Shown piece after piece: positions 22,317-39,253 of a stretch of DNA of 64,000 nucleotides; position 1 is the first letter of the stretch, and every line of letters starts with the position of its first letter. A model generated the notes under the pieces. The model was not told the DNA's origin. It saw only the letters and a program-made list of their open reading frames with translations, and made no database searches. The translations under genes were made by a program, and so were the position numbers. Source of the stretch: an uncultured Muribaculaceae bacterium (GTDB taxonomy: Bacteria > Bacteroidota > Bacteroidia > Bacteroidales > Muribaculaceae); NCBI GenBank assembly GCA_905233845.1, contig CAJOFH010000013.1, positions 30,531-94,530 on the forward strand, written 5' to 3'.

Positions 22317-22340
22317 TCGTTTTAATTACGAGATTTGTCG

Positions 22341-22348
22341 TATCTTTG
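22341..22348 (+). promoter_or_regulatory. TATCTTTG -7 box, 4 nt before ATG 22353
   Basis: TAnnTTTG match. Confidence 0.55.
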
Positions 22349-22352
22349 CATT

Positions 22353-23441
22353 ATGGAAGAAAACAAGAACCTCATTAAGTCGCAAGATAAACAAGTGTTG
22401 CCCACGCAATTAGTTGACGATGTGAAACTAATTATTGAGCGTGGGTTACGTGAAGCGTACGATAAAGTTAACACAGTTGCCATTCATACGTATTGGCTTA
22501 TTGGCAAGCGCATTGTTGAAGAAGAACAGCATGGCCAGCGCAGAGCTGAATATGGTAGCAGATTAATCACTTCGCTCGCTGATGAACTGTCCTTAGAGTA
22601 TTCCAAAGGTTTTACGGCGAGGGATTTACGCAATTATCGTCAATTGTATCTGTGCTTCAATGATTTAGAGATTTGGTACACGCGTGTACCAAATCTTAAA
22701 TGGTCACACTACCGTACTGTTTTGTCGGTCACAAGTGAAGATGCAAGATACTGGTATATTCGTGAAGCCTCTACAGAATCATGGAGTGTGCGTACTTTGG
22801 CACGCAACGTTGGCTCTCAGTACTATCACCGATTACTGCAATCGCCAAAAAAAGAAGCCGTTGTCAATGAAATGCTGCAACTCACAGCACCATTGAACGA
22901 CGAGCCGCAAGGTTTTCTCAAAGACCCTGTTGTGGCGGAGTTTCTGCAACTCCCGTCAAATGCATCATTCACCGAAACCGAACTTGAGAAAGCCATTATT
23001 CGGCACTTGAAGGAATTTTTGCTTGAAATGGGTCGTGGATTCGCATTCATGGCTGAGCAATACCACATCAACACCGATGCCGGCGATTTCTTTGTAGACT
23101 TGGTTTTCTACAATGTGGTGTTGAAATGCTATGTACTTATCGACCTCAAAACAAAACGAGTGACCCATCAAGATGTCGGGCAAATGGATATGTATGTGCG
23201 AATGTTCGATGACCTAAAGCGTACCGAGGGCGACAACCCAACCATCGGCTTGCTACTTTGTGCCGACACGAGTAAAGACATCGCTCAATACTCTGTGCTT
23301 CACGACAGCAAACAACTCTTTGCCGCAAAATATCTCACTTTCTTGCCGAAGAAGGAAGTGCTTGACCGTGAAATAGAGCAGCAGAAAGAGATATTCTACT
23401 TGCAACACAACAAATCAGCAAAAGAAGATACCGAACAATAA
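22353..23441 (+). CDS. DUF1016/YhcG-type PDDEXK nuclease
   Basis: 'AYGSRLITSLADELSLEYSKGFTARDLRNYRQLY'-like N-domain and 'DLVFYNVVLKCYVLIDLKTKRVTHQDVGQMDMYV' nuclease core. Confidence 0.85.
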   Translation: MEENKNLIKSQDKQVLPTQLVDDVKLIIERGLREAYDKVNTVAIHTYWLIGKRIVEEEQHGQRRAEYGSRLITSLADELSLEYSKGFTARDLRNYRQLYLCFNDLEIWYTRVPNLKWSHYRTVLSVTSEDARYWYIREASTESWSVRTLARNVGSQYYHRLLQSPKKEAVVNEMLQLTAPLNDEPQGFLKDPVVAEFLQLPSNASFTETELEKAIIRHLKEFLLEMGRGFAFMAEQYHINTDAGDFFVDLVFYNVVLKCYVLIDLKTKRVTHQDVGQMDMYVRMFDDLKRTEGDNPTIGLLLCADTSKDIAQYSVLHDSKQLFAAKYLTFLPKKEVLDREIEQQKEIFYLQHNKSAKEDTEQ

Positions 23442-23486
23442 CATCTATTTTACTTCTTTTTGTCAATAATATAGATTATTCAAAAA

Positions 23487-24326
23487 ATGGTTCGACTGGA
23501 AAACGTATCATTCGGATACAAGAAACATAAATATATACTTCAAGACATCAATCTTCTATTGATGCCGTCTCATGTTTATGGGCTTTTGGGAATGAATGGA
23601 GTTGGCAAATCCACATTATTGTATTTGATTACCAATTTGTTGCGTCCACAACAAGGAACAATCTCATATAAAAATTCCGCCGATGGAAAATGGCAGAATA
23701 AAATTGAAGACTTCTTCTTTGTTCCTGAAGAATTTGATTTGCCAAACATCAGTATTAGAAACTATCTGAAAATAAACGTTCCATTCTACCCAAAGTTCAG
23801 CGAAGATGATTTTTTCCAATATCTCAGCCTTTTTGGTATTGATTGCGACAATAGACTGGGAGAGTTGTCGATGGGGCAAAAGAAAAAATTCTATTTGAGT
23901 TTTGCTCATTCTGCGAATACCGACTTACTTATCCTTGACGAGCCGACTAATGGCTTGGACATAGTAAGCAAGCAGCAATTCCGGGATTTCATTTCCCAAT
24001 CCACGGAGAATAGTGACAAATGTATTATTCTTTCCACTCATCAGATTAATGATGTTGATGTTTTGTTTGACGATGTTGTTATCTTACATGACAAGCATAT
24101 AATTCTTCAAGCTGATTGCGAATCTTTATCACGAAGATTTGTTATTGAGAAAGATGGAGCACAAATAAATGATAGAAACTACTTGGCAGTTCTACAAGAT
24201 GCAAACAGAAATTTCTCATTACGAGCTGCCCAAAGCAACACGAGAATAGATTTGGAGATGTTATATAATATGTTGGTGCACAATCCGAGCATTGCAGAAA
24301 CTATAAATCATGAACTCACAAAATAA
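23487..24326 (+). CDS. ABC transporter ATP-binding protein
   Basis: Walker A 'GMNGVGKST', signature 'LSMGQKKK', Walker B 'LLILDEPTNGLD'. Confidence 0.9.
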   Translation: MVRLENVSFGYKKHKYILQDINLLLMPSHVYGLLGMNGVGKSTLLYLITNLLRPQQGTISYKNSADGKWQNKIEDFFFVPEEFDLPNISIRNYLKINVPFYPKFSEDDFFQYLSLFGIDCDNRLGELSMGQKKKFYLSFAHSANTDLLILDEPTNGLDIVSKQQFRDFISQSTENSDKCIILSTHQINDVDVLFDDVVILHDKHIILQADCESLSRRFVIEKDGAQINDRNYLAVLQDANRNFSLRAAQSNTRIDLEMLYNMLVHNPSIAETINHELTK

Positions 24327-25041
24327 AATCAATCATTTATTTATGGCATTCAGGAAGTTTCTTCATGAAAATGCCAGACGATTGCTGTATTATGCCGCAT
24401 TGATGTTTGCGGCAATGTTGCTTTCGTACTTGATATTTGCAATTATTCCCGTCCTATCGCGACCTCAATCTAATCTTAATTATGCCACTGAGATAATGCA
24501 AATAAGCATTTTCTTGTTGTTTGTATTTGGCTGCTTAAGCGCAAGCATCATGTTTCGGGAGTTAAGAAATCGAAGAACACGAATAGCCTATATATGCTTC
24601 CCGACCACCAAGTTCGAGAAGTATATTATCGAGTGGTTTGTTTATGTTTTGTTATTCCCAGTTATATTTTTGTTGTTATCAGAATTATCGGTAAAACTCC
24701 TTATTGCTATTCTTCACTTCTCTGTGGAATCCACAAAAAGCATGGAGAACATATCGGTTACAAAACAACTCATTGAGTTTACGAAAAGTGAAAATAGTGT
24801 ATTCTTGTTTTTCTTAGCCGTTCAATCATGTTTTGTGATTGGTAGCGCATATTGGCGGAAATTCCCTTTTATTAAAACTTTCTTATGTATAGTGGGCATT
24901 TCTGTTGCTTTGTTCTTCTATGCTCTACATTCCAAGAATCAAGATGTTTTAATCGCATACAACTATGTCTATGTAATCTTCACTCTAATTGCATGGGCAT
25001 TATCATATATTGTTTTTCGAAAGAACGCAACATTAGTATAA
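24310..25041 (+). CDS. ABC transporter permease-like membrane protein
   Basis: Six hydrophobic segments; overlaps ATPase gene. Confidence 0.7.
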   Translation: MNSQNKINHLFMAFRKFLHENARRLLYYAALMFAAMLLSYLIFAIIPVLSRPQSNLNYATEIMQISIFLLFVFGCLSASIMFRELRNRRTRIAYICFPTTKFEKYIIEWFVYVLLFPVIFLLLSELSVKLLIAILHFSVESTKSMENISVTKQLIEFTKSENSVFLFFLAVQSCFVIGSAYWRKFPFIKTFLCIVGISVALFFYALHSKNQDVLIAYNYVYVIFTLIAWALSYIVFRKNATLV

Positions 25042-25141: not shown

Positions 25142-26629
25142 ATGATTGACGTAAACCAACTCACCTCGCTAATCTCGGCGTTCCGTGTCGAGACTGAGAA
25201 AGAAAGCATCTCGCCCGAAACCGTCGGCAAGATACTTCAAGACATTACCGACCTGCTCGCCACCGCATCGACGGACGCGGAGCGTCAAATCCTCGATGAC
25301 TGGAAAGCAATGTTGTCGCAGTTTTATGTCGTCTATGACGTGGCGGATGCCAATATGCCCGACCCGCAGAACATGTTCCTGCGGTTGAAGGCACGCAACC
25401 TCGGCAACGGCAACTCCTATTCATCGTCAGTGCCCATCGCCGGGGCAACCGACATGAAAGCAGGAGCGATGACGGCCACTCACGTTCAGACCATCATGGC
25501 CCTGCAAGCTGCCGTAAGCCAGCTGCGTTCCTCGGTCACATCGTTACAGACCGCAAGCAGTCAGCATGGCAACCAGCTGTTCATCATCCAAGCCGCAGGC
25601 TATGTCGTGACCGGCATAGCCCAGGGAAATCCTCACTCGTCGAGGGTGAACCTGCGGATCACCCAGCACGACGTGCGCACGGGTGAGGACTTCGTGTTTG
25701 ACGGCAGCACCTATCTCACTGGCGCGACCAATGAGAAAGCCGGTGTGATGACAGCCCAGCAGTGCAACGCGCTGAATGTCGCCAAGACCGACATCACCGC
25801 ACTTCAATCCGCTATGCGCAATGTGCAGGGCGCAGGGTGTGTGGTCGATGGGGCAACCGTGTTCCACATCGCCACCGACAGACTGGGAATTATGCTGTTC
25901 GGCTACAACCTCGCCACTGGCGAGCGTGAGGTCGAATTGCAACAGTTCTACCTCACGGGAGCCTCGGAGTATGGCGCAGGAGTGATGACCGCCCGACAGG
26001 TCAAAAGGCTCAACGAGCTTTATCAAGCGGTGTTTGGTGGAAACGGCAGCACCGCGTTTTTCAACTTCGGCATTGAAATCGGCGAGGGAAAGAGAGAACT
26101 CTTTCTGAAGCACGCCGTCAAACTCGTTGAACTCGGCTATGTGCCGTACCTTTTCCGCTATTCGCGCAAGCGTAACCGCAAAATCGACAACGAAGGGCAC
26201 AAATCACACGGCGATTTGCGAAAGGGCTGGAATGTCGTCGGCAAAGGCGAAACCATCCAAATCGGCAACAACGGCCAAGTGAGCATCAACAAAATCATGT
26301 TTGAACACGATGAGTTCGACGACGAGGAAATGCAGAGCATGGCGCAGTTCCAGAGCGAAGCGAAGTTCTTTGTCGCCGACAAGTACGATGAAGCTCTGGG
26401 TATAAGGTATGTGCCATTCGGCAAGAACCGAATCAACCTGCATGTGAAGATAAACAACGAGTACCAACTGCGCAAGGTACGCTTGCAGTACGGCATCGCC
26501 TTCGCCTCGTACCGTGCCGGCAAGCGGGAACTGCTCGACAAGACACGCCTTGTCACGCCCATTGTGCCGTTCCACATCGCCAACGTGCCGTTCCGCAATG
26601 GTGGCTACCGCTGGGTGTTCGAGCGATAA
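25142..26629 (+). CDS. phage structural protein with repeated domains
   Basis: 495 aa; recurring 'LTGAt.e.aGvMTA.q...L' motif. Confidence 0.55.
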   Translation: MIDVNQLTSLISAFRVETEKESISPETVGKILQDITDLLATASTDAERQILDDWKAMLSQFYVVYDVADANMPDPQNMFLRLKARNLGNGNSYSSSVPIAGATDMKAGAMTATHVQTIMALQAAVSQLRSSVTSLQTASSQHGNQLFIIQAAGYVVTGIAQGNPHSSRVNLRITQHDVRTGEDFVFDGSTYLTGATNEKAGVMTAQQCNALNVAKTDITALQSAMRNVQGAGCVVDGATVFHIATDRLGIMLFGYNLATGEREVELQQFYLTGASEYGAGVMTARQVKRLNELYQAVFGGNGSTAFFNFGIEIGEGKRELFLKHAVKLVELGYVPYLFRYSRKRNRKIDNEGHKSHGDLRKGWNVVGKGETIQIGNNGQVSINKIMFEHDEFDDEEMQSMAQFQSEAKFFVADKYDEALGIRYVPFGKNRINLHVKINNEYQLRKVRLQYGIAFASYRAGKRELLDKTRLVTPIVPFHIANVPFRNGGYRWVFER

Positions 26630-26635
26630 CGGCAC

Positions 26636-26730
26636 AAAAAAAATGATGAGCTAGGGCACATCATTATAAAGGACGGTGAACTACGGTACACCCTTATGAG
26701 TCGGAGAGAGCTACGGCACCCTCTTACTGA
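26636..26730 (-). ncRNA. candidate sRNA with three iterated stem-loops
   Basis: Minus promoter at 26736-26767; hairpins 26704-26723, 26675-26692, 26642-26665; terminal T8. Confidence 0.7.
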
Positions 26731-26735
26731 TACTG

Positions 26736-26767
26736 CAAAGGTACTCACTTTTTCAATAACCACCAAA
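26736..26767 (-). promoter_or_regulatory. promoter TTTG-N20-TACCTTTG
   Basis: Exact -33 and -7 boxes with 20-nt spacer on minus strand. Confidence 0.7.
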
Positions 26768-26783: not shown

Positions 26784-27272
26784 ATGGATTTTTTCGTAGA
26801 AACGCTCAAAAACGCATCACTCCACATCCATGCCGTGTGGCTTGCCATCGCATACGTTGCCGTGATACTGGCAATGGCCGTCGATTTCATCGCCGGACTG
26901 CGAAAGGCGAAAATCGCTGGCAAGGTCACAACAAGCAGGGCATTGAAAATGACCACAGAGAAAGCAACCAAGTACTTTCTCCCTATGTTGTGCCTCTCCT
27001 GCATTGACGTTCTGACTTCCGTTGTCCTGCCAGCACCGTTCTTCACGCTGCTCATGGGCGCGTTCAACATCTTCTGCGAATGGAAGTCGGTGCTTGAAAG
27101 CACCCACGACAAGCAGGAGTTGCGCGAAGCAGCCAACACCTTCAACGTCATTGTCAAGAACAAGGACGACATCGCAGGTATCATTATGCAAGCGATGGAG
27201 ATGATGGAGAAGAAACAAGCCATCGAGAGTAATAACAAAAATATCAACCCCCAAACAACAGAAGAAACATGA
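26784..27272 (+). CDS. phage holin-like membrane protein
   Basis: 'VDFIAGLRKAKIAGKVTTSRALKMTTEKATKYFLPML' typical of toxin-secretion/lysis holins. Confidence 0.7.
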   Translation: MDFFVETLKNASLHIHAVWLAIAYVAVILAMAVDFIAGLRKAKIAGKVTTSRALKMTTEKATKYFLPMLCLSCIDVLTSVVLPAPFFTLLMGAFNIFCEWKSVLESTHDKQELREAANTFNVIVKNKDDIAGIIMQAMEMMEKKQAIESNNKNINPQTTEET

Positions 27273-27721
27273 AAAAGAAAGTCATGAACATCAGACCGCA
27301 GGAAGTCACCCAGGGCGGCGAGCGGTCAGTCCAGTACAAAGGCAGCGACGGCAAGATGCACGGCATCGCACCCGCTGGCAACGGCGGTGGCACCGCCCAA
27401 TCAAACATCGTGCTTGAAGTCAATTTTGCCGACGACGGCAAAGCGTTCACCGAAAGTGAACTGATTGACTATCTCACACAGTTCATGAACGGCAAGTGCA
27501 TTATTTGCATTTCCGACAACAACTGGGGCACGCAGAATGAGCGTCGCGTCGCTCTCGTCACCCGTGCCAAAGGCTTCGAGGTCGTTGACGGAAGCATCGT
27601 CATCGGCAACTCGCTGACTTTCGAGCTTGCAAGCCCATCGGCTTTCGGCGACCTCGACGAAGTTATGTTCCTCAAACAGCAAGACGGCAGCTTTGAATTG
27701 TCCCACTATTTCAACAAGTAA
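27269..27721 (+). CDS. modular phage protein, paralog 1
   Basis: N-terminal ~45 aa nearly identical to next gene; C-terminus unrelated. Confidence 0.6.
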   Translation: MKKKVMNIRPQEVTQGGERSVQYKGSDGKMHGIAPAGNGGGTAQSNIVLEVNFADDGKAFTESELIDYLTQFMNGKCIICISDNNWGTQNERRVALVTRAKGFEVVDGSIVIGNSLTFELASPSAFGDLDEVMFLKQQDGSFELSHYFNK

Positions 27722-27724
27722 GCT

Positions 27725-28312
27725 ATGAAAAAGAAAGTCATGAACATCAGACCGCAGGAAGTCACCCAGGGCGGCGAGCGGTCAGTCCAGTACAAGGGCA
27801 GCGACGGCAAGATGCACGGCATCGCGCCAGCTGGCAATGGTGGCAGCACCGCCCAATCGCAAGACGTGCATCTTAAAGATGCCTTCGTCATCTACCGAAA
27901 TAATATGGATCTTTTTGGTCAGGGCGAGCGGACGGTCATCTACAAGATGAACGACTGGGTAAGAACGGAAGTCGATGTCGACACGCTCATGCAAGCACTG
28001 GAGCAGAACGCATCGCAACCAGTCCTTATTCAATTAGAGTCAATGGAAGAAGGCTTCAATGTGGTGGCAAGAGTAATCAGTCTTGCATTGAGCCAAAACG
28101 AGGAAGATGAATCTTATTCGCCTTCGGTGATTTGTCTCCAATGGTGGGCTTACGAGGGTAATGTCGTGGATATTTTCAATGTTGTCCTCGAAAAAAATGA
28201 GCAAGGCTCCACCATTGAGTTTATCCCACAGGCCTTTGCAATAGGTAACGATGATTCAGGAAATGGTCAAATCGCTAACGGTCCAGAAATTGGAGGCAAT
28301 GGAAAGTTATAA
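27725..28312 (+). CDS. modular phage protein, paralog 2
   Basis: As above. Confidence 0.6.
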   Translation: MKKKVMNIRPQEVTQGGERSVQYKGSDGKMHGIAPAGNGGSTAQSQDVHLKDAFVIYRNNMDLFGQGERTVIYKMNDWVRTEVDVDTLMQALEQNASQPVLIQLESMEEGFNVVARVISLALSQNEEDESYSPSVICLQWWAYEGNVVDIFNVVLEKNEQGSTIEFIPQAFAIGNDDSGNGQIANGPEIGGNGKL

Positions 28313-29464: not shown

Positions 29465-29503
29465 TTTTTTCATGATGATTTTTGAGTTTAATATGTTCAT
29501 TCA

Positions 29504-30445
29504 AGTAAAGGCTTTGCCGTGAGGCACGGCCTTTACTGCTTCAAGGTGTAAACACATAGCGACCGACCCCACACACCCGCCCTTGACACAATGCAAGCAT
29601 TGCCAAATTGCCCACCCCAGCCCCCGATGTGGGCGGCGTTCCGGACTGGCTCGGCATGGCGGCGATGAGCTTTACGTTGCGGACACCGGCTAACGGCTCA
29701 CAACATCAATCGGGTATCGAGGCGGCAAGCCGTTTCGACACCCGATTTCGCCACCGCCAAACCCACGCACTCGGCTCTTATCGGTCGCTACCATTGCGCA
29801 CCGCGTCTCATTCCGACATCGAAAGTGCCACGCCTACGGCTTATATGCCTCTCTATTGACGGCGTTACGGAAGCGCATCAAGTCTGCCTCGTTACATCGG
29901 GTATCGGTGCGCCAAGTCGCACTGACACCCGATGATTTTCCACTATGTCAGACACAATGCTCGACAGGTCGTTCCGTAACGCCTATGGTTCGGCAAGGGC
30001 ACACTCAATGCTCCAATCGTCTTGTGCTCCATTACCGCTCCCTGCAAGCCCAGTGCTCTCGCTGCGCTCGGGGATTGTCGGTGGGGTGAGCCTATCCGAA
30101 GTCCTTCACTATGCTCGTCGCACGCAATGCTTCTCACCGCCCAATGAACACTCGCCCACATCGCCTAATCACAAAATCAAGGCGCAAGCGAGTTGAGCCA
30201 CGATTTTGATTTAACGATTTTCGGCAATCCGAAAATCTCGAACAGCGGAAGCCAAAGTGTGCCGCCGAAACCAAAACTGCGTTTCGGTTCATCGGCTCAC
30301 ATTGGCGCTCTGACCGCACATTCAGCTCGGTCGAAAAGGCAATTTGCGAAAGCGAGGAAGAGGGTGGTCGGGGGGTCTTTGCAGACAGCAACGGGGCGCA
30401 GCCCCGTACCCCAGAAAAGGCTGTTACACAGCCTTTTAATTTTTT
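29504..30445 (+). ncRNA. candidate large structured non-coding RNA (~940 nt)
   Basis: No convincing ORF; many strong hairpins and long-range helices; ends in terminator 30415-30445. Confidence 0.7.
30415..30445 (+). terminator. rho-independent terminator
   Basis: AAAAGGCTGT-tac-ACAGCCTTTT-aa-TTTTTT. Confidence 0.85.
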
Positions 30446-30626
30446 CAATCCTTAACAAATCGTGTGTTTCCGTAAATCGAGGCTGAAAATACGCAGAAAT
30501 ATCGACTGATTTTCAGTCATTTACACACTTTGTTGTTTTGCACTTTCTTGCACAATGTTGCACATCGGCAAAGTTCCTGCAAAGGATTGAAAATTTCGCT
30601 CGCCAATAGGCGAGGTCGGCAATGTC

Positions 30627-30669
30627 TTTTATAGGTCGGAACGACAAAATTACTTTTGTGCCTATAAAA
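30627..30669 (+). promoter_or_regulatory. tape-measure promoter within 9-bp inverted repeat
   Basis: TTTT-N20-TACTTTTG; TTTTATAGG / CCTATAAAA arms flank it. Confidence 0.6.
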
Positions 30670-30685
30670 TCCATAATCTACTACA

Positions 30686-37724: not shown

Positions 37725-38960
37725 CTATTTCTTGCCATATAGCACCCAGTCAAGCACTTTTCTATTGGCCTCATCGACCTTGCTTTGGTCAAAGTCAATG
37801 TAGATGTCGGTCACTGTGTTGTTGCCGTGTCCGAGAGCATGGGCGATAGTGTCCTTCGGAATGTCAAGAGAAGCGGCGATTGTAGCCCACGAGTGACGCG
37901 CCCAATACGTTGATATTTGGGGAAATAGTGGCTCGTATTCTTTCTTGCCTCCACGCCCTACACGCTTCACTGGACCAATCTTTTTCAAAGCTCGGTTCAT
38001 TCGTTTTGTGTAGTCCTTATAGTCCTTGTATCGGTCAAGAATGTTAAGCAGCCACTTCTCGCCACGGTAGCGATTGATGATTTCCAACGCCTCTGGCTCA
38101 ACCTTTATACTATAAAGGCGGTTAGTCTTTGCTCTGTGAAACTCCACCCGGCCATCCACAATAGCCGTGAGGTTGCAAAGGTCAATCGCATTGATACCCA
38201 GCAGCATAAACATCAGCTTGAACATATCAAGATACTGTTGGGCGTGCTTCTCACAAGGATAGTTGAAAAACTTACGAAGTTCCTCTACTTTGAGGTTTCG
38301 CTTGGCAGTCGCAACATTGCGGATAGAGAAGCGACGGAACGGGTAGAACGTAGTGATTTCATCATCAAGAGCCTCGTTGAAAACGGCTCTGATGTTGCGC
38401 AAATGAATGTTGCGAGCGTTCTTTGAGGGTGATTGAGGGATGAGGTGAGAATCAAACTTCGTCAGCCATTCCTTTGTAATATCCTCGAAAGCAAGCGTTT
38501 CGAGTTTCTTACCTGCGAACTCAACCATACGCTTATATGTGTCCATATAAATGCGTTTGGTACTCGGCTTTTTGCTGTCAGCAAAAGCGAGGTAGCGTCT
38601 GACAAACAAGTTCTTACGCCGTTCCGCTTGTTCTTTAGCCTCGACCTTGCTGGGATTGAGTTTGCGCTCAATCTCTAGTTTAATGTCGTTGGCAGTCATA
38701 CTTTGCAGACTGCCAGCGTCAGCGAGGATAAAGATAGTACGCTCCACCTGCTGCATAATCCCCATCAAATACAGGTTTAGCACCTTTTGCTCTGGGTGGT
38801 TCACCACCATAGACTGCCCGCAGTCCCATTGCGTGGGCAGCAGTCGTGCATCAGTTGAGATGTACGAAGTCTTGTCACGGTGACCGATAGCCACCTTCAA
38901 GACCGACGGAGACCCAGGTTTCGTTCTCCGTGTGTCAAGGAAAAACTTAGTTCTTGCCAT
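37725..38960 (-). CDS. tyrosine recombinase/phage integrase
   Basis: 'YWARHSWATIAASLDIPKDTIAHALGHGNNTVTDIYIDFD'; start MARTKFFLD. Confidence 0.9.
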   Translation of the reverse strand: MARTKFFLDTRRTKPGSPSVLKVAIGHRDKTSYISTDARLLPTQWDCGQSMVVNHPEQKVLNLYLMGIMQQVERTIFILADAGSLQSMTANDIKLEIERKLNPSKVEAKEQAERRKNLFVRRYLAFADSKKPSTKRIYMDTYKRMVEFAGKKLETLAFEDITKEWLTKFDSHLIPQSPSKNARNIHLRNIRAVFNEALDDEITTFYPFRRFSIRNVATAKRNLKVEELRKFFNYPCEKHAQQYLDMFKLMFMLLGINAIDLCNLTAIVDGRVEFHRAKTNRLYSIKVEPEALEIINRYRGEKWLLNILDRYKDYKDYTKRMNRALKKIGPVKRVGRGGKKEYEPLFPQISTYWARHSWATIAASLDIPKDTIAHALGHGNNTVTDIYIDFDQSKVDEANRKVLDWVLYGKK

Positions 38961-39178: not shown

Positions 39179-39253
39179 TCGGGATGACTAGATTCGAACT
39201 AGCGACCCCACGCCCCCCAGACGCGTACTCTAACCGGACTGAGCTACATCCCG
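39179..39253 (-). tRNA. tRNA-Pro (anticodon GGG)
   Basis: Cloverleaf read by eye: CGGGATG acceptor, loop CTGGGGG, T-loop TTCGAAT, CATCCCG-A. Confidence 0.9.

Follow-up and report, generated by a model that had tools for sequence, protein, structure and literature searches.

A conserved three-hairpin RNA antisense to the fibre-like/holin intergenic gap in Bacteroidales prophages

A prophage of rumen Bacteroidales, here in an uncultured Muribaculaceae bacterium, carries, on the minus strand between a fibre-like structural gene and a holin gene, a three-hairpin unit that comparison with related prophages marks as almost certainly a real, conserved RNA. This three-hairpin phage RNA is previously uncatalogued. 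Our preferred reading, which we put at roughly 40%, is that it is a multi-site RNA expressed in the lysogen that binds a cap-reading protein, as a sponge or a scaffold. Throughout, coordinates refer to the window, the whole 64,000-nucleotide stretch of DNA that was analysed.

Results

A promoter, three hairpins and a terminator opposed to the late genes

The unit stands opposite the intergenic part of a plus-strand gene row, and the whole set fits inside the 154-bp gap between the fibre-like gene and the holin gene. Read along the minus strand, it opens with a putative primary-sigma promoter of the sigma-ABfr type, TTTG-N20-TACCTTTG (26736..26767), in which TTTG (26767-26764) is followed by a 20-nt spacer and then by TACCTTTG (26743-26736); the published promoter consensus is TTTG / TAnnTTTG (PMC7366714). 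The assignment draws on the sequence and on the same element in relatives, where it lies upstream of hairpin 1 on the minus strand in all class-1 members, and we infer that the RNA is made in the lysogen from this host-type promoter. About 12 nt beyond TACCTTTG begins the first of the three hairpins of a predicted non-coding RNA of ~95-100 nt (26636..26735, minus strand; the extent of covariance model R1, which scores 93.2 bits in cmsearch). These are hairpin 1, GAGGG-U-GC-CGUA-GC-U-CUCUC (26704..26723, minus strand; DNA GAGGG[TGCCGTAGCT]CTCTC); hairpin 2, GGUG-U-AC-CGUA-GU-U-CACC (26675..26692, minus strand; DNA GGTG[TACCGTAGTT]CACC), in whose cap interior A-U takes the place of G-C by a change on both sides; and hairpin 3, AAUGAUG-U-GC-CCUA-GC-U-CAUCAUU (26642..26665, minus strand; DNA AATGATG[TGCCCTAGCT]CATCATT), which doubles as the stem of an intrinsic terminator. 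The terminator is completed by a T8 tract (26636..26643, minus strand), evident in the sequence and kept as a T-run in relatives.

A preliminary description, made from the sequence alone, had placed a minus-strand phage sRNA here, and the sequence bears out its coordinates, stems, promoter and T8 tract, as well as the spacing of exactly 30 nt, twice, between loop starts (26718, 26688 and 26658). The 10-nt loop that it described has to be revised: on RNA folding, each such loop closes into a U.U mismatch, two G-C or A-U pairs (GC/GC or AC/GU) and a tetraloop.

Hairpin 3 with its T8 tract makes a good intrinsic terminator, and the GGTG..CACC stem also occurs in host terminators, so the set could simply be a reinforced terminator or barrier to minus-strand transcription whose RNA is itself functionless. 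We regard this as very unlikely: hairpins 1 and 2 have no U-tract and are as conserved in pitch and cap as hairpin 3, and, because the RNA has its own promoter, there is nothing upstream to terminate.

The prophage setting

The gene upstream on the plus strand encodes a fibre-like structural protein of 495 aa (25142..26629), and 6 bp separate its stop codon, at 26629, from the RNA's end; the gene downstream is a holin of the Phage_holin_4_1 family (26784..27272, plus strand; Pfam PF05105, phrog_20732), whose start codon lies 16 bp past the promoter's -33 box. Complementary to this intergenic gap, the RNA overlaps no coding sequence. The fibre-like protein carries the AGxMTA...L module three times, has a beta-rich C-terminal part and weakly matches a PHROG family of unknown function; its structure prediction is of low confidence, fold searches on it were uninformative, and its identity as a fibre is presumptive. 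The prophage also encodes a portal, a tape-measure-sized gene and a tyrosine integrase (37725-38960) that adjoins a tRNA (39179-39253).

Several other features of the region are recorded here in their own right. Between the head genes and the fibre-like gene, 22335-25041 holds apparent cargo (a DUF1016/YhcG nuclease, an ABC-transporter ATPase and a membrane protein), and the same position holds other genes in relatives (L015, L016). The neighbouring genes 27269-27721 and 27725-28312 have a nearly identical N-terminus of ~40 residues (MKKKVMNIRPQEVTQGGERSVQYKGSDGKMHGIAPAGNGG) and different C-termini; the shared N-terminus is a duplicated exchangeable module. From a small lipoprotein-like gene to the tape-measure-sized gene, ~1.2 kb (29465-30685) lack a convincing ORF and are possibly a large non-coding element or a decayed gene. 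Pieces of the fibre-like gene's N-terminal part are dispersed over many genomes of the genus, several per contig (G123:C35, G092:C23/C27, G100:C15, G102:C47 and G000:C45), and could be read as recombining cassettes or as pseudogene arrays.

The fold is conserved on the minus strand

By minimum free energy alone the window sequence does not stand out (z = -0.93), and the case for the RNA therefore rests on conservation. In the window, the loop pattern TRCCSTAGYT has 4 matches against 0.46 expected, three of the four being these hairpins. A mechanical three-hairpin detector found this site alone in the window, gave 0 matches in 100 Markov-1 resamplings and 0 in 1.64 Mb of reversed and complemented controls, and recovered the array in nearly all family members. 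Covariation was assessed on eight distinct RNAs from loci not picked via the RNA, using a plain sequence alignment and a hand-written structure. Over 22 pairs, 90.9% of pair cells were standard and 10 pairs had changed on both sides; the stems held 20 compensatory cells, a value reached by 0 of 500 shuffles. When partner columns were slid by 1-3, pairing fell to 37-52%.

For strand, we counted mismatches in fixed stem windows of four pairs outside the mismatch (148 cells) and found G.U 16 times, A.C 0 times and other mismatches twice, indicating that the minus-strand RNA is the fold under selection. The single G.U of hairpin 1 from which minus-strand transcription had first been argued is present as stated. 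Together with the promoter, hairpins, terminator, pitch and covariation kept in related prophages, the asymmetry strongly supports a minus-strand phage sRNA.

The 30-nt pitch is divisible by three and some members contain open frames of up to 37 codons, as would suit a short peptide gene that resembles an RNA. This idea is scarcely credible, given 29- and 31-nt spacings that break the frame, the lack of a common start codon, differing translations and pairs that co-vary; no conserved ORF was found in the RNA across members.

Cap and pitch are kept while loops, stems and linkers drift

Among 12 distinct RNAs, identity is 0.97 in the cap GC....GCUC, 0.34 in the tetraloop, 0.54 in the stems and 0.40 in the linkers, and the loop pitch is 29-31 nt in every family sequence. 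What occurs together throughout the family is the promoter, three GC-N4-GCU caps, the 29-31 nt pitch and the U-tract, antisense in the fibre-like/holin gap. The loop consensus URCCSUAGYU of the preliminary description fits this phage only, the family keeping GC....GCUC and the 30-nt pitch; of the two features whose conservation in homologous prophages had been proposed as a check, the hairpins are conserved and the loop consensus is not.

Tetraloops differ by clade (UUCG three times; UCGG/UCGG/UCAG; UUCC/UUCU/CUCU; others). Inside one RNA they are alike (Hamming distance 1.43 vs 2.63 expected, 0 of 20,000 permutations) while the stems are not, which suggests one common reader. The same likeness could partly stem from short gene-conversion tracts, a point against the protein-ligand reading; in its favour, no conservation is seen in the linkers, the place for an antisense seed.

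The RNA recurs wherever the junction is retained

Relatives were sought mostly with the holin protein and not with the RNA, across viral contigs, the host genus and GTDB genomes; those found are few, mutually related and MAG-derived, and most of the hosts that have a name are ruminant-gut Muribaculaceae/Prevotellaceae MAGs. In each related prophage region with a retained fibre-like/holin junction, the minus strand bears the promoter, three hairpins and T-tract upstream of the holin, with ~12 distinct RNA sequences at the junction, and this pairing of the same RNA with the same two genes, wherever both are retained, favours a protein ligand. Holin genes without the RNA either lie in degraded or rearranged regions (L027/L137, L033, L034, L041, L146-L148, L160) or are distant holins of other phages (L018-L021, L149-L159). 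Covariance model R1 exceeded 40 bits in 12 of 101 genus genomes, in the same phage lineage or its remnants; matches in the genus below convincing scores were weak and terminator-like.

Two genomes detected by blast (G026, G029) have only the promoter in common with the unit. On contig C83 of G026 (L009:332-1320), the holin and the promoter of the RNA persist, and a minus-strand agmatine-deiminase-like gene stands where the hairpins would be. The host genome holds a second RNA copy on contig C103 of G000 (L002:1187-1309), with the promoter and hairpins 1-2 at 88% over 75 nt; its hairpin 3 is broken at the 5' arm, transposase-like ORFs follow (1333-1686 and 1817-2665), and the copy comes after a LuxR-like gene, at a distance from phage genes. 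This interrupted copy indicates that the RNA unit can be moved or left behind, which does not imply a function there.

In other genera the slot holds three-hairpin RNAs or longer tandem-hairpin RNAs

The fibre-like gene is spread more widely than the R1 RNA, and in the family's other genera it is followed on its 3' side by a minus-strand RNA with a TAnnTTTG promoter. In two of these phages (G622, loci L228/L271; G590 contig 42, loci L234/L272), the RNA has three hairpins at a pitch of 30/31 and 30/30 nt, the spacing in L234 having been read by eye. Their caps are GGGC-N4-GCTT or GAGC-N4-GCTT, and below the GC pairs a tandem G.U or A-U/G.U step replaces U.U. That three hairpins, a ~30-nt pitch and GC-N4-GCU caps are kept in sequence otherwise unrelated to the window RNA speaks for a protein ligand.

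Most other-genus RNAs in the same slot, which we call class 2, are longer, at ~210-350 nt (loci L218-L227, L231-L233, L235 and L236, in fibre-like/lysis gaps). They are laid out as 2-4 copies of a unit like GTGAAGCCAAGCTAAATGAACCGGACACCTC (tandem unit GTGAARCCAWGCTAAA..CCGGAYACCTC), then three GATAGC...GGGCTATC hairpins ~14-18 nt apart with T's after the last, and none of them matched Rfam. Class 2 keeps its stems (GATAGC/GCTATC) but not the GC-N4-GCU cap, so no single reader is implied for the whole group, which counts against the protein-ligand reading; these RNAs are either descendants of the three-hairpin RNA or replacements of it. At a further locus (L229, G717 contig C13), the minus strand downstream of a longer, 597-aa fibre-type gene has a promoter, several hairpins and a terminator, with a methylase-like gene adjoining, and the RNA slot may on this showing be general in Bacteroidales phages.

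To which neighbour the RNA belongs can be read from 30 loci collected with G622's small membrane (holin-like) protein as query. Such a minus-strand RNA was present in 17/17 loci with the fibre-like gene and in 0/11 assessable loci without it (13 lack the gene, 2 of which end at a contig edge), a co-occurrence with Fisher p = 5e-8 when relatedness of the loci is ignored. At L279 the RNA stands in front of a different membrane gene (L230), and overall at least three different holin-like genes occur next to it, indicating that it follows the fibre-like gene and not one holin type. The earlier suggestion of a regulator of the adjacent holin survives as a live rival, but these associations weaken it.

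The tie to the fibre-like gene is what would be expected of a lysogen-protecting prophage sRNA, for example one that base-pairs with a host mRNA to lower the receptor of the phage's own fibre (superinfection exclusion). In E. coli, the lambdoid prophage sRNA svsR represses receptor-linked maltodextrin transport genes and limits phage infection (PMC12803456), and in Bacteroides the FopS sRNAs repress SusC-like transporters, one FopS sequence having been found in a phage (PMC11697453). We nevertheless hold such a role to be improbable here, as the RNA has no conserved unpaired seed, its linkers drift, its co-occurrence with the fibre-like gene may merely reflect one phage lineage, and the "fibre" is itself presumptive. 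Within the phage part, no mRNA target elsewhere carrying the loop motif was found.

Position argues for cis-antisense control, strand asymmetry and cap against it

The same position and orientation suggest another role, that of a cis-antisense RNA that restrains late-operon expression at the junction with the lysis genes: in the lysogen the RNA, or its transcription opposed to the late genes, would pair or collide with leaky late transcripts between the fibre-like gene and the lysis genes and hold holin low until induction. The RNA is always in the same gap and always opposed to the late genes, whatever the holin type, and cis-antisense control explains this strictness better than a sponge or scaffold does; if the RNA acted purely in trans, it would be by coincidence that it always lies antisense at the late/lysis junction. 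Antisense RNAs of the ColE1 RNA I and CopA type are likewise ~100 nt long and weakened below the loop, as here, and RNA I also has three stem-loops; phages have precedents in lambda oop and P22 sar. Several observations run the other way. The G.U to A.C ratio of 16:0 in the window family, and the G.U without A.C next to the cap in each hairpin of both other-genus RNAs, indicate that the complementary strand does not keep the matching hairpins on which a kissing pair would depend. The cap letters are conserved, though antisense pairing sets no constraint on them; the rigid UUCG tetraloops of one clade are poor for kissing; and no ribosome-binding site is covered by the RNA, which starts ~50 nt before the holin's start codon. 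Kissing through a loop AGCU, as first envisaged, is unlikely for the same tetraloops and because AGCU is not conserved. On balance we consider cis-antisense control less likely than not, though it is the main rival to a protein ligand.

The RNA matches no known family

Rfam scans by gathering threshold and by E-value matched no family, the best sub-threshold score being 17.7 bits against a threshold of 51.1 (RF03081, plus strand), and the INPHARED phages contained no match to the window RNA or to a class-2 RNA. Order-wide covariance-model matches (E 1e-4 to 1e-8) were rejected, as those inspected resembled single terminator hairpins or lacked the array; viral pattern scans were genuine only in phages already known and one clade-mate, the remainder being chance repeats; and the order-wide GGGC-N4-GCTT pattern gave chance matches only.

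The tetraloops of family RNAs contain no GGA, and CsrA (PF02599) is absent from the host genome (G000, 97% complete) and was detected in the controls E. coli, B. subtilis and T. maritima; GGA-free loops and a host without CsrA rule out membership of CsrB/RsmZ. Of the sponge with CsrB-like logic proposed earlier, the repeated protein-binding modules remain the best reading, and a literal CsrB fails. A search for ToxN (PF13958) gave no match in the host genome, nor in any control genome, and the next stretch on the minus strand past the terminator, which is the antisense of the fibre-like gene, holds no toxin gene. Type III antitoxins (ToxI, AntiQ, CptI) were discarded for this lack of an adjacent toxin gene and for repeats that are unlike, their stems differing; the repeat antitoxin RNA of the preliminary description falls on the same two points.

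Repeated modules at a fixed pitch would also suit a defence decoy, an RNA anti-CRISPR (Racr) or type III antitoxin mimic that soaks up a defence nuclease. In ToxI-type escape, a phage repeat-like RNA acts against defence. Racr RNA anti-CRISPRs, phage hairpin RNAs with their own promoter that copy the host CRISPR repeat including its stem, show that phage repeat-like RNAs for such use exist (PMC10651486). The loop pattern GTRCCSTAGYTC, however, occurs in the host genome at these three hairpins only, so that no multi-copy host repeat and no host array has it, what varies is the stem, the element that Cas6-type enzymes read, and no toxin gene adjoins. As far as the loop motif shows, the unit does not mimic a CRISPR repeat, and we think a decoy quite improbable.

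Discussion

We favour a multi-site protein ligand, which would act in four steps. From its own host-type promoter, the unit would be transcribed against the late genes and stop at hairpin 3 and the U-tract, giving an RNA of ~100 nt; sequence conservation establishes the unit itself, and its transcription is the presumed part. The product would present three copies of one module at ~30 nt pitch, each a stem, a non-Watson-Crick step and a cap GC-[N4]-GCU(C); the module is seen in the sequences, with U.U as the step or, in other genera, tandem G.U. One RNA-binding protein, as three copies or as an oligomer, would then read the caps, as we infer from the fact that only cap letters and pitch are kept while loops, stems and linkers drift. 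Finally, the RNA would titrate or scaffold this protein in the lysogen, as a sponge like CsrB/RsmZ for a different protein, and the phage would gain control of host or late-gene expression.

More broadly, and more tentatively, Bacteroidales phages might possess, among their core components and fixed between fibre-like and lysis genes, a diverse class of antisense tandem-hairpin RNAs that serve as multi-site ligands of an RNA-binding protein and so control host or late phage expression. In three lineages the class as we conceive it has three hairpins, a 30-nt pitch and a GC-N4-GCU cap, and elsewhere it takes in the versions of 210-350 nt.

To our knowledge, little is known about RNA regulators in Bacteroides phages. 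Bacteroides lack obvious homologues of Hfq and ProQ (PMC7366714), and a multi-site ligand class, if real, would provide ligands of RNA-binding proteins in bacteria without either. A position-locked, covarying RNA with fixed pitch and conserved cap is direct bait for a cap-reading protein; if the antisense rival is true instead, it would be a lysis-control switch in gut and rumen prophages. The R1 model, together with the further RNAs that other genera have in this slot, makes the question testable now under either reading.

Among known systems, Racr RNAs are likewise phage hairpin RNAs with their own promoter, but here the stem varies and the loop motif is in no host array. FopS/GibS resemble the window RNA as Bacteroidales sRNAs that end in an intrinsic terminator, with one phage copy (PMC11697453); FopS differs in having a single-stranded 5' seed and one terminator hairpin, and the Rfam scan found no match for the window RNA. 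The sRNA svsR shares with it the origin in a prophage, and differs in its lambdoid E. coli setting and its maltodextrin transport targets (PMC12803456). RNA I/CopA and oop/sar are alike in length (~100 nt), in being antisense to a neighbour transcript, here a presumed one, in a weak upper-stem step and, for RNA I, in three stem-loops, whereas here the cap letters are conserved, the loops drift and G.U is found on one strand only. CsrB/RsmZ differ from the present RNA, which has no GGA in its loops, a host without CsrA, a phage location and three hairpins at 30-nt pitch; they share with it the form of a stand-alone sRNA whose repeated hairpins, with their common cap motif, are suited to binding one protein in several copies.
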